Assembly (NCBI RefSeq): GCF_001904615.1
Contig: NZ_MRBY01000039.1
Coordinates: 1 to 36,640 of the forward strand
Source: [Limnothrix rosea] IAM M-220
GTDB taxonomy: Bacteria; Cyanobacteriota; Cyanobacteriia; Cyanobacteriales; MRBY01
Reading direction: 5' to 3'
DNA: 36,640 nucleotides
Part shown: positions 10,976 through 17,620 of the stretch, in pieces
Layout of the letters: every line of letters begins with the position of its first letter
How positions within the stretch are numbered: the first letter of the stretch is position 1
Made by a program: the position numbers and the translations under genes
Notes under the pieces: generated by a model
Database searches by the model: none
What the model was told of the DNA's origin: nothing
Seen by the model: the letters and a program-made list of their open reading frames with translations, nothing else

Positions 10976-12943
10976 TTAAGCTGCAATAGGTAACTCAAGG
11001 ATGAAGGTTGTGCCTTCCCCGAAAACAGCGTTACAGGTGATTTTGCCATGGTGTTTTTCTGTGATGATTTGGTGGGCGATCGCCAAGCCTAGTCCTGTAC
11101 CTTTGCCGACTTCTTTTGTCGTGAATCCCTGTTCAAAGATGCGTTTTAGGGTTTCAGGTGTCATCCCACCGGCATTATCTTGAATCGTAATGGTGATGTA
11201 ATCGGCCAATAAAGTTGTCGTAATAGAAATATGATTTGGGTTAGCTTCTATTTCTTGAAAAGATTTGCCTTGGTTGATTTCATCAAAGGCATCAATTGAG
11301 TTGGCGAAAAGATTCATGAAAACCTGGTTTAGTTGTCCCGGAAAACAGCGGATTTTTGGGAGTTCTCCATAGGTTTTTGTAATCTGTATTTCGGGTCGTC
11401 CCTCATTACTCCGAGTGCGGTGCTTGAGAATCATTAGGGTACTATCAAGACCGTCGTGAATATTGAAAGGGCTTTTCTCATCTCGGTCTTTGCGGGAAAA
11501 ATTTCTTAGGCTTTTACTAATATTTTTAATGCGATCAATGCCAACATTCATAGATGCTAGGAGTTTGGGTAAATCCTCTTGTATAAAGTCTAGCTCTAAT
11601 TCTTCTAATTTTTCTTTGAGCTCTACATCGTCATTGGGACAACGTTCTAGGAGAAAATCGATCAGCTCAAAAAGATCTTGAACATAATTTTGGGCATGGG
11701 AAATATTCCCCTTCACGAAGCTGGTGGGATTATTAATTTCGTGGGCAACTCCGGCAACAAGGTTTCCGAGGGCTGACATTTTTTCGCCTTGAACTAGACG
11801 CAGCTGGGCTTTCTGGAGATCTGCTAGGGCCTGTTCTAGTGCTTCTGTTTTTTGAATAATTGCGGCTTGGTTTCGCTGGCGATCGCTAATATCACGCACC
11901 ATCGAAAAAATACCAATGGCGATATTATTGTTATCCCGCAGCGGTGTATTAAACCACTCACAGGTAATAATTTCCCCATCTTTACGGATATTTTGATTGA
12001 GGCTGTAATAGCCCCCCTGCTGCTGGATCAGGTTTGACAGGATCTCTCTGACGAGGGGACGGTCGGTTTCTGGCACGATTTGTTCGGCGTGGTGACCTAG
12101 CATTTCTGTTGCGGCATATCCAAAAATCTGCTCGGCTGAGGGATTCCAACCGATCACTTTAAAGTCGGTACTCCATTCAATGATGCCAATGGGACTTTGT
12201 TGAATTAAAAAGGTTAGTCGTTCTTGGATTTTGCTGGTTGACAATGGACTAGCGTTGGTGGCTTTTTGCGGTGCTGCTGATAGTTGCTGCTGTAAATGGT
12301 TGTTTTCTTTTTGTGTCTGTTCGTATCGTTGGGCATTTTCTAAGGTGATCGCCCCTTGAGTTGTGAGGAGTTCTAGGGGTTCTAAGCTGTGTTGGTCAAA
12401 GGCTTGTTGACTGGCCTGACGTTCTAGTTCTACGTATAGCCAACCGTTAATCTCGCCATTTTTAAGGCGTAGGGGTAAACATAGGGCACAATTGGCCGGG
12501 TATGGCTCAACATCAGGCTCGCTACCATTGGACAAAATCTGCTTTTGTTTGCCCTGCCAAGCATGATTAATAAAATTGATGGGCAAATCTTCTGCTGTCT
12601 CAATGGGGGTTTCACAAAGAATTGTTTTTCCCGTAGTGGCGATCGCCTTTATGAGCAAAGACGGTTGCCCTTGCTCTGAAGTCTCTTCTAATAAAACAGC
12701 ACAGCGATCGCCTTCAGTATATGTCAAGAAGATTTCAGCTAAAGTCTTGAGCAAAGCATCAGTTTTTAGACAGCTTGTAATTGCTTGGACAGCTTCAAAT
12801 ATGGCCGTCATGTCAAAAGCATCAGTTTTTAGACAGCTTGTAATTGCTTGGACAGCTTCAAATATGGCCGTCATGTCATTTGAAGACCAGTTATTTGTTA
12901 CTTGGGAAGATGTTGTTGTGTTTTCCTTCGGGGTGTTGCACAT
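10976..12943 (-). CDS. GAF-PAS sensor histidine kinase
   Basis: A 655-residue soluble sensor kinase with no membrane helices. The order is a duplicated N-terminal 21-residue segment (about 23-64), a GAF domain (about 65-210), a short coiled stretch, a PAS/PAC domain (about 245-365, with GWNPSAEQIFGYAATEM), a coiled-coil linker, a dimerisation helix with the phospho-acceptor His in GVAHEINNPTSF, then an HATPase domain with N box (FMNLFANSIDAFDE), G1 (DNAGGMTPE) and G2 (GKGTGLGLAIAHQI). No receiver domain is fused and no response regulator lies beside it, so it is an orphan kinase. The GAF lacks the chromophore Cys context of a cyanobacteriochrome, as far as can be seen. Confidence 0.92.
   Translation of the reverse strand: MCNTPKENTTTSSQVTNNWSSNDMTAIFEAVQAITSCLKTDAFDMTAIFEAVQAITSCLKTDALLKTLAEIFLTYTEGDRCAVLLEETSEQGQPSLLIKAIATTGKTILCETPIETAEDLPINFINHAWQGKQKQILSNGSEPDVEPYPANCALCLPLRLKNGEINGWLYVELERQASQQAFDQHSLEPLELLTTQGAITLENAQRYEQTQKENNHLQQQLSAAPQKATNASPLSTSKIQERLTFLIQQSPIGIIEWSTDFKVIGWNPSAEQIFGYAATEMLGHHAEQIVPETDRPLVREILSNLIQQQGGYYSLNQNIRKDGEIITCEWFNTPLRDNNNIAIGIFSMVRDISDRQRNQAAIIQKTEALEQALADLQKAQLRLVQGEKMSALGNLVAGVAHEINNPTSFVKGNISHAQNYVQDLFELIDFLLERCPNDDVELKEKLEELELDFIQEDLPKLLASMNVGIDRIKNISKSLRNFSRKDRDEKSPFNIHDGLDSTLMILKHRTRSNEGRPEIQITKTYGELPKIRCFPGQLNQVFMNLFANSIDAFDEINQGKSFQEIEANPNHISITTTLLADYITITIQDNAGGMTPETLKRIFEQGFTTKEVGKGTGLGLAIAHQIITEKHHGKITCNAVFGEGTTFILELPIAA
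12753..12878. repeat. Perfect 63-bp tandem duplication inside the kinase gene
   Basis: Two identical 63-bp copies, 12753-12815 and 12816-12878, abut head to tail with no mismatch. They keep the frame, so the kinase contains the block MTAIFEAVQAITSCLKTDA twice. Identity at the DNA level, including third positions, indicates a very recent slippage or recombination event. Confidence 0.97.
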
Positions 12944-13530: not shown

Positions 13531-13773
13531 ATGAACAAGACACCAGTACAATTAAAAGAAAACGTTAGCTCTGGCTGGTCTCTACAGCTATATAGTGGCG
13601 ATCGCCGTCTACTATGGTCTCTAGACCCATCCCACGGCTGGATATTCCTAATCGGTAGTATCTTGGGCTTCTCTTCGGCATTATTATTGGGCTTTTCTTA
13701 CCCAGAAGAAACAATCAACTCTGTTGACCCCGTCATTGACCAAACAGTGACTCCACTATTGGAAGTTGACTAA
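13531..13773 (+). CDS. Small single-helix membrane protein, unknown
   Basis: An 80-residue protein that I do not recognise. It has a polar, basic N-terminal half (residues 1-34), one hydrophobic helix at about 36-57 (GWIFLIGSILGFSSALLLGF) and a short acidic tail ending LLEVD. AAGGA lies 7 bases before the ATG, which supports the start. A clear intrinsic terminator follows at 13841-13871, so it is a single-gene transcript. The helix has a Gly/Ser-rich face that could favour helix packing. It contains a HIP1 octamer, like neighbouring genes. It converges with the sbtA-sbtB operon, but nothing in the sequence ties it to bicarbonate uptake. Confidence 0.75.
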   Translation: MNKTPVQLKENVSSGWSLQLYSGDRRLLWSLDPSHGWIFLIGSILGFSSALLLGFSYPEETINSVDPVIDQTVTPLLEVD

Positions 13774-15867: not shown

Positions 15868-16002
15868 TTAGGGGCGATCGCCAACACTTAGATCGGCGTC
15901 TTCAATGTAATCCTTCAGGAGTATAGATTTCAGGCAATAAAGCAAAATCATCAAACTAAAATAAACGATTACGAAAACAGCAACCTGGTGATACATATTC
16001 AT
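15868..16002 (-). CDS. Unrecognised 44-residue membrane peptide upstream of sbtA
   Basis: A short ORF (44 codons plus TAA) that I translated by hand. It starts MNMYHQVAVFVIVYFSL, continues as one hydrophobic helix to about residue 29 (MILLYCLKSILL) and ends with an acidic tail KDYIEDADLSVGDRP. TGAGGAAATG gives a good ribosome-binding site, with GAGG just before the ATG. It lies 158 bp upstream of sbtA on the same strand, and a plausible promoter precedes it by about 80 bp. It would therefore be the first gene of an ORF-sbtA-sbtB transcript. I do not recognise a family. A single-helix accessory subunit of SbtA is attractive but purely inferred. The last codons include a HIP1 octamer. Confidence 0.7.
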   Translation of the reverse strand: MNMYHQVAVFVIVYFSLMILLYCLKSILLKDYIEDADLSVGDRP

Positions 16003-16085: not shown

Positions 16086-16114
16086 TATATATCAGAGCTG
16101 ATATACATGACCAA
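16086..16114 (-). promoter_or_regulatory. Promoter with built-in palindrome, sbtA operon
   Basis: On the minus strand TTGGTC (16114-16109), a 17-bp spacer and TATATA (16091-16086) preceded by TG (extended -10) form a promoter. Inside it lies TATATCAG-ag-CTGATATA (16088-16105), an 8-2-8 perfect inverted repeat overlapping the spacer and -10. That is the position expected of a repressor operator. The predicted start near 16079 leaves a leader of about 77 nt before the 44-residue ORF. The regulator is not identified; the site does not match the NdhR/CcmR consensus I recall. Confidence 0.55.
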
Positions 16115-16270
16115 AAAAAATACTTGGCGTGGCTGAACGAAGAGACAATCTGCAGACTCGATAAGCGAGAAAACCGAGTTGCAGTGCATTTCTATTGAAA
16201 ACGTTCTCTGTTGTTACAGTCACGCCAAATACAAAATCCACGTTGCATAGAAGCTTTCCTATGCCTGTTG
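16113..16270 (-). ncRNA. Candidate structured small RNA upstream of sbtA
   Basis: On the minus strand a roughly 157-nt RNA is predicted. It begins after a good promoter and ends in eight U. Its 5' part is a hairpin GCATAG-8 nt-CTATGC (16264-16245). The 3' part, about 105 nt, folds as one long interrupted rod. In order the nested pairs are TTGGCGTG/CACGCCAA, CTG/CAG, AAC/GTT, GAGA/TCTC, CAAT/ATTG, CTGCA/TGCAG and CTCG/CGAG. The outer stem (16228-16221 with 16131-16124) runs into GTA and T8 at 16120-16113, as in an intrinsic terminator. A 68-codon frame overlaps it but has no ribosome-binding site and looks accidental. It could be a free sRNA or a decayed inverted-repeat element; I do not recognise a family. 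Confidence 0.55.
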
Positions 16271-16275
16271 AAAGT

Positions 16276-16305
16276 ACTATACGCTTTTCACTATACAAAT
16301 GTAAA
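16276..16305 (-). promoter_or_regulatory. Sigma-70 promoter of the candidate RNA
   Basis: On the minus strand TTTACA (16305-16300), an 18-bp spacer and TATAGT (16281-16276). Five of six positions match at each element. The predicted start near 16270 coincides with the 5' edge of the structured RNA. Confidence 0.6.
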
Positions 16306-16654: not shown

Positions 16655-17620
16655 ATGACTAACGCCCTTGCGAAAGCCGAAGTGTTTCCTGCTCTAGAAC
16701 AAGAGCTGGATATCCTCGCACAACTCCTCGAAAATCAAAAATCACCCAACACCTGGCGTGCCTACAGGAAGGATATTCGCGATTTCTTTCGGTTCGCAGC
16801 GGATGCCCATGAACCAACCCCAATACTGGTTGATGCCTTCCTAAAACTGGATCAAACCCAAGCTTTATCCCTCGTATTACGCTACAAAAATGACCTGCGC
16901 GATCGCCGCCGTCTCAAAGAAGCAACCATTAATCGCCGACTGGCTGCGTTGAAATCTTTGGTGCGTTTAGCAAATCAGTTGGGGCAATGTACCTTTACCC
17001 TCGATGGAATTAAAGGAGAAAAAGTCGTTAATTATCGAGATACGACAGGTATAAAACAAAATTTGTATAGACAAATCTTGCAAATACCAGATAGAGGAAG
17101 CGTCAAAGGGAAGCGAGACTACGCATTGTTAAGATTGCTCTGGGATAATGCTTTACGGCGCGGCGAAATTGTCCAAATTAATTTAGAAGATTTAGACATG
17201 GAAAACCGAAAAGTGGCGATTTTAGGGAAAGGCAAGGGCACACAAAGGCAGGACATTACCCTTTCGAAGGCGACAGTGACAGCATTGGAGGAATGGATTG
17301 CAGTGCGTCCGAAGCAAAAAGGCCGGGTTCAACCTCTGTTTATCGCGTTAGATCATGCTCACTATGGTCATCGGTTAACGGGAACAGCTATTTATCAGCT
17401 GGTACGGAAAACGGCAAAGCTTGCAGGTATTGACAAGGTGATGTCACCTCACCGCATTCGCCATTCTGGGATTACTGCGGCATTGGATGCAACCAATGGG
17501 GATGTACGTAAGGTACAAAAGTTTTCGCGGCACTCGGATCTCAATACGTTGATGATTTATGACGATAACCGGAAAAATATGCAGGGTGAAGTGACGGATT
17601 TGTTAGCAGATTTAATTTAA
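16655..17620 (+). CDS. Tyrosine recombinase (XerC/D-like integrase)
   Basis: A 321-residue site-specific recombinase. An N-terminal SAM-like core-binding domain (about 1-115, with NTWRAYRKDIRDFFRF) is followed by the catalytic domain. The catalytic set appears complete: Arg in NALRRGEIVQIN, the beta-hairpin Lys in ILGKGKGTQ, HxxR in SPHRIRHSG, a second His in KFSRHSDLNT, and the nucleophilic Tyr in LMIYDDN. Length and layout resemble the single chromosomal XerC-like recombinases of cyanobacteria. It is not beside a tRNA, transposase or phage gene, so a housekeeping role in dimer resolution is as likely as mobility. The start is ATG; paired hairpins lie upstream. Confidence 0.9.
   Translation: MTNALAKAEVFPALEQELDILAQLLENQKSPNTWRAYRKDIRDFFRFAADAHEPTPILVDAFLKLDQTQALSLVLRYKNDLRDRRRLKEATINRRLAALKSLVRLANQLGQCTFTLDGIKGEKVVNYRDTTGIKQNLYRQILQIPDRGSVKGKRDYALLRLLWDNALRRGEIVQINLEDLDMENRKVAILGKGKGTQRQDITLSKATVTALEEWIAVRPKQKGRVQPLFIALDHAHYGHRLTGTAIYQLVRKTAKLAGIDKVMSPHRIRHSGITAALDATNGDVRKVQKFSRHSDLNTLMIYDDNRKNMQGEVTDLLADLI

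Follow-up and report, generated by a model that had tools for sequence, protein, structure and literature searches.

A candidate terminated RNA in the leader of a 42-residue membrane-type reading frame near sbtA in [Limnothrix rosea] IAM M-220: a proposed actuaton-like arrangement

Actuatons as the closest described systems

In the sections of PMC5386190 cited here, actuatons are described as sRNA/mRNA units in which an abundant small RNA is accompanied by read-through into the next gene, and a hallmark of these units is that the downstream gene lacks a start site of its own. The examples given there from Synechocystis PCC 6803 and PCC 6714 include CsiR1, the cmpA leader Ncr1575, and Yfr2b/c; CsiR1 is traced to a sequence that integrated downstream of a conserved promoter (PMC5386190), and is reported as CO2-responsive in the part of PMC4390856 used here.

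The window analyzed in this study is a contig of 36,640 nucleotides from the genome of [Limnothrix rosea] IAM M-220 (contig C41 of genome G000), and it was compared with five further genomes of the same genus, G001 to G005. On the minus strand, between the candidate promoter P1 and an open reading frame of 42 residues, lies a long rod-like fold followed by a U tract (Table 1). We propose, with a probability of roughly one half, that the P1 transcript is both a terminated small RNA of about 157 nt and the 5' leader of the small ORF, in the manner of an actuaton. Transcription from P1 would give a discrete RNA made up of the 5' hairpin, the rod and eight U, ending at its own intrinsic terminator; the majority of transcripts would stop at 16113, and the 42-residue ORF would be expressed through incomplete termination, possibly assisted by a weak promoter, P2, at the terminator. 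The rod would then be a cassette added between an old promoter or operator and its gene, or lost from the sister leaders.

The likeness to the actuatons described in the cited part of PMC5386190 lies in a small RNA with an incomplete terminator, placed in sense orientation between promoter and protein-coding gene, and the likeness to CsiR1 in a sequence that one strain has gained behind a conserved promoter and the other strain lacks. The proposed resemblance concerns the layout of the elements, and no relation in sequence is claimed. In contrast to the described examples, the rod RNA is predicted, precedes an ORF of only 42 residues, and has a weak candidate promoter after its terminator; were P2 to provide a start site of its own, the hallmark of the downstream gene would be broken.

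Table 1. Coordinates of the features of the candidate leader and the ORF behind it, as positions in the window.
Feature	Position	Strand	Basis or remark
Promoter P1, TTTACA-N18-TATAGT	16276..16305	-	10/12 consensus positions; similar pair in 4/4 homologous leaders
5' hairpin or DNA dyad CATAG-N8-CTATG, near predicted RNA 5' end	16246..16263	-	In 4/4 leaders
Rod (basal helix, middle helix, small side hairpin, apical helix)	16121..16232	-	Fold z -5.38; homologue in G005
U8 tract, candidate intrinsic terminator	16113..16120	-	Read from sequence; U6 in G005
Predicted discrete RNA, about 157 nt	16113..16269	-	Inferred; start taken from P1
Weak candidate promoter P2, TTGGTC-N17-TATATA	16086..16114	-	Read from sequence; overlaps U tract
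42-residue membrane-type ORF preceded by the RNA	15868..15996	-	Between rod and sbtA; alternative start 16002

The rod and its flanking signals

The minus strand from 16105 to 16270 folds with an energy of -53.9 kcal/mol (z -4.98), which none of 200 dinucleotide shuffles matched; restricted to the rod and U tract (16113-16232), the fold has -41.3 (z -5.38), again unmatched in 200 shuffles; for a slightly longer rod stretch with a separate shuffle set the z-score was -3.7, and 1 shuffle in 300 was as good. The main arms, 16121-16148 and 16204-16231, are 28 nt long and 75% complementary. The first-pass annotation had described one long rod running into eight U on the minus strand, and these values bear it out. 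The site of the rod and U8 was not listed by a simple terminator scan confined to loops of 3-8 nt. As far as sequence goes, the analysis supports a structured, conserved RNA candidate that begins behind a promoter and finishes in a U tract. The strand and transcription of this RNA are inferred from P1 and the U tract; its termination and read-through, and any role in trans, are predictions, and the rod may have been either gained or lost.

A 68-residue frame with a TTG start overlaps the rod. Its substitutions between the two known rods fall 8/39, 11/40 and 15/39 by codon position, a mild excess at the third; since stops interrupt the frame in G005, no conserved coding frame underlies the rod, and we rejected it as coding sequence. 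We also considered 6S RNA, which is a long bulged rod of comparable size. The genome carries its own copy elsewhere (RF00013 at G000:C66:494-680, 67 bits), while the model has no match to the rod or anywhere else in the window, and this identity was discarded.

A search for sites of P1 grade found one where shuffled sequence gave a mean of 2.9, so that P1 alone is no more than chance would supply; a similar -35/-10 pair recurs at three homologous leaders. We regard a sigma-70 promoter placed at the 5' hairpin as plausible. The P1 spacer holds a TATAG half-site, which is CATAG in the other leaders. The CATAG-N8-CTATG dyad lies just inside the predicted transcript; its loop sequence is not conserved among the leaders, and it may be an operator or an RNA hairpin. 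The pattern is not enriched genome-wide (in six genomes it has 14 sites, and its reversed form 20), and its weight comes from position alone. G002 (G002:C1:534636) and G003 (G003:C1:519723) also carry this dyad and a promoter of similar kind, at 0.73 and 0.75 kb respectively on the upstream side of sbtA, where its arms are longer and differ between the two genomes by a paired change (AATTC/GAATT against AATCC/GGATT); neither the small-ORF family nor the rod was found in these two genomes.

At the other end, the RNA had been said to finish exactly at the -35 element of the next promoter. A -35-like hexamer does overlap the U tract in both genomes that carry the rod; as a promoter element it is less convincing, with 3/6 consensus positions in the window and no call for P2 by the promoter scan, which calls none in G005 either, where TTGACC stands at the same place. 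This hexamer bears on a different reading, in which the rod is a free-standing small RNA gene that acts in trans or binds a protein, and the 42-residue ORF is a mere neighbor with P2 as its own promoter. P1, the rod and the U tract would suffice as a complete gene. However, P2 is weak, and the RNA and the ORF stay together while the sbtA side is rearranged. Moreover, predicted duplexes between the RNA and the start regions of sbtA, sbtB, the 42-residue ORF and the recombinase gene (the last in G000 only) were no better than with shuffled targets (fractions 0.095-0.925 in seven tests), and targeting of these neighbors in trans was dropped as a candidate. We regard a free-standing gene as unlikely, though the most serious competitor to the leader reading.

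The 42-residue ORF and its leaders

The ORF has homologues in G005 (57% identity), on a second contig of the same genome, C7 (48%), and in G004 (50%). The family, at window 15868-15996 (-), L052:2054-2182, L063 and L064, shares the core ILLYCLKS; a search of 148 genomes at E 0.01 gave close homologues in 3, one of which is G000 itself with two copies. No match was found in Pfam, NCBIfam or PHROGs, or for a four-row profile among PDB sequences. Run over 386 genomes, the ORF profile gave matches in ten at E 0.01, the source genome included. Four of these (G012, G040, G080 and G245, all from one other family of the order) are plausible distant homologues, the frame in G245 being without an ATG at the aligned start; the short partial matches in G378, G285, G300, G342 and G363 were set aside as chance. 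A collection of genome contigs, scanned with near-exact peptide patterns and possibly omitting records near the window, yielded one relative, the metagenome-assembled genome G004.

It had been suggested that the RNA might be an attenuated leader of the bicarbonate transporter operon, and the gene order tells against this. In the window the rod is separated from sbtA by the 42-residue ORF. The pair of rod and ORF is kept, co-oriented, in G005 but is inverted there relative to sbtA; in G004, a draft genome, contig C93 carries the ORF and C136 sbtA. We therefore reject the rod as an sbtA leader. The ORF is downstream of the rod and co-oriented with it at both rod loci, and in each the U tract faces the ORF. 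By this linkage, and with the G004 ORF apart from sbtA, the conserved unit is the leader with its small ORF. The case cautions against assigning a structured RNA to the best-known gene nearby as its leader.

P1 and the dyad are present in all four leaders of the family, and the rod in two, those of the window and G005. This is the pattern of a variable cassette behind a conserved promoter, as in CsiR1, although not every actuaton needs it; a paralogue is among the leaders, which keeps this from being a clean comparison of strains. The absence of the paired segments from homologous loci of close relatives had been named in the first-pass annotation as an outcome that would count against the RNA, and the relatives are divided: G005 has the rod, whereas the C7 and G004 leaders keep the promoter and 5' hairpin and lack it. 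Nor was a rod found in the stretches examined upstream of sbtA in G001-G004, and with a threshold of E 5 the covariance model described below returned none in these four genomes. Judged by eye, the proteins of C7 and G004 are closer to each other than to that of the window, and the ORFs may therefore form two sub-types. One ORF family thus has one promoter and 5' hairpin both with and without the terminating RNA, and both forms occur in a single genome; the natural comparison of C41 with C7 makes gain or loss of the small RNA/leader cassette directly testable.

A tyrosine recombinase gene that starts 0.35 kb from P1 raises a further reading, in which the rod is a palindrome acting at the level of DNA, as an operator or recombination site, for example for this XerC-like enzyme, and not an RNA. 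The palindrome does read on both strands. Against this, the U tract is on one side only, the recombinase gene of G004 (by eye) lies beside an ORF without a rod, and among the ORFs in 5 kb around the G005 rod no recombinase-like frame was seen by eye. We consider a purely DNA-level role very improbable. The gene itself, at 16655-17617 (+), is XerC/XerD-like with scores below the NCBIfam cut-offs; by eye, a similar one adjoins the small ORF in Limnothrix RL_2_0 (L085), the assembly with which G004 is the same or nearly the same (1774 identical bases).

Conservation, wider searches and the question of a mobile repeat

The G005 rod (L052:2388-2261, minus strand) was recovered by a single-sequence nhmmer search over seven loci at E 9.1e-11, and its local alignment with the window rod scores 278, where the maximum among 300 shuffled rods was 176. 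When the sbtA upstream regions of nine relatives were read, a homologous rod was found in G005 only. The two rods are 71% identical (84/118 aligned columns), compared with 59% for P1 and the hairpin (38/64), 68% for the stretch from terminator to ATG (53/78, with 39 gap columns) and 60% for the sbtA-sbtB spacer (63/105); gapped alignment inflates such non-coding values, that of the rod included. Fourfold sites are 52% identical in sbtA (99/190) and 54% in sbtB (22/41), and by this measure the rod evolves more slowly than the synonymous positions of either sbt gene; this neutral yardstick is uneven, as the third positions of the 42-residue ORF are 65% identical over 43 codons and its fourfold sites 5/8, close to the value for the rod. 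The 300 nt above P1 are 44% identical (125/285), which is the shuffled level, the mean for 40 aligned shuffled rods being 44% and the highest 55.5%. Standing above both the sbtA fourfold sites and the upstream DNA, the rod is by these comparisons conserved, and it is probably under selection.

The first-pass annotation had proposed a look for compensatory changes in relatives, and with two sequences these are not significant: of the 41 pairs of the G000 fold, 34 are kept in G005 (null mean 31.9, P 0.18), and of the 33 pairs of the G005 fold, 24 are kept in G000 (null mean 24.1, P 0.63). A consensus of 33 pairs is possible in both rods, nine of them changed and one on both sides, but this consensus was chosen to fit both sequences, and the shuffle control gave 259/500. 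By the G000 fold, substitutions fall in 19/82 paired and 15/36 unpaired columns (Fisher p 0.049); by the G005 fold the difference is small (17/66 and 17/52). The G005 rod folds more weakly (z -2.69; 2 of 200 shuffles as good), and its minimum-energy fold departs from the consensus in the interior, which can rearrange. The parts of the rod that hold up well are its basal and apical helices.

Another reading is a ligand- or protein-sensing attenuator, similar to a riboswitch, that would control the 42-residue ORF. The position of the rod, its terminator-like 3' end and its conservation above sbtA synonymous sites are consistent with this. However, the alternatives to the basal helix amount to only about 5 bp by eye, the sister leaders are wholly without the rod, and no family of Rfam 15 matches it at the gathering score; we think such a sensor improbable. 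The Rfam search agrees with the earlier remark that no RNA family could be recognized; the matches below threshold, mir-340 (E 0.084) on the window rod and Atu_L1 (E 0.0059) on the reverse strand of its G005 counterpart, are far under gathering and were judged chance.

With the leader as query, blastn at E 0.001 brought up no relative from 39 other genomes, and within the genus, at E up to 10, short matches only, the best outside G000 at E 0.024 (G002). A covariance model built from the two rods gave strong matches in the six genus genomes only in G000 and G005. Two weak ones accompanied them, the opposite strand of the G005 rod and a site on contig C18 of G000 (E 0.25), which has no inverted repeat and was dropped. 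Outside the genus the model found no credible copy among 386 genomes of the phylum (four genomes at E up to 0.1, one being G000) or 388 of the order (six at E up to 0.05, including G000 and G005); the two samples overlap, and with stricter filters and only 8-9 candidates scored per genome, weak relatives may have been missed. The window leader had no DNA match in phages, and neither it nor the G005 leader had one in plasmids. Eight stretches of viral contigs that fit a loose stem pattern were folded and set aside as coincidence; L086 and L087, one sequence, appear coding by eye. A limited literature search in one library found no report of this RNA. As a long shot, we put forward a more specific proposal, a lineage-restricted new class of regulatory RNA. 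The rod would respond to a signal, perhaps one connected with inorganic carbon or membrane energetics, or would bind a protein, and would thereby control termination ahead of a very small, undescribed membrane protein with CATAG repeats in its promoter.

Palindromic elements also include Nezha and the other MITEs of cyanobacteria named in the cited parts of PMC3733652 and PMC10969869, and MITEs may influence neighboring transcripts. The rod could accordingly be the fossil of such a mobile repeat, retained as a terminator and nothing more. It has inverted-repeat ends and is missing from the sister leaders, and three of five weak model hits outside the genus (L076, L077 and L094) are palindromic, measure about 130 bp and have ends around GGCGTTGCTGA. 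Repeated genomic copies, by which a MITE would be recognized, were not found: G000 and G005 have one strong copy each, and none was detected in the four other genomes of the genus. The five weak hits (the three above with L078 and L095) have per-genome E values of 0.004-0.09 over 386-388 genomes, which is the level of chance; the ends differ beyond GGCGT, no target duplication is visible by eye, and the interior is conserved too. These differences, and the lack of a convincing match, make a mobile-repeat origin unlikely, and we retain the actuaton-like leader as the preferred reading.

The palindromes L076, L077 and L094 come from three genomes that all belong to a single other family of the order, and resemble MITEs in their own right; they may be of Nezha type. 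Within the window, a small ORF with a membrane-type stretch (SHGWIFLIG) lies beyond sbtB at 13531-13773 (+), and a frame resembling it by eye stands upstream of sbtA in G001-G003. Finally, a perfect tandem duplication of 63 bp (12753-12878; 2.0 copies) duplicates 21 residues in the N-terminal part of the ORF at 10976-12943, which is histidine kinase-like by eye.
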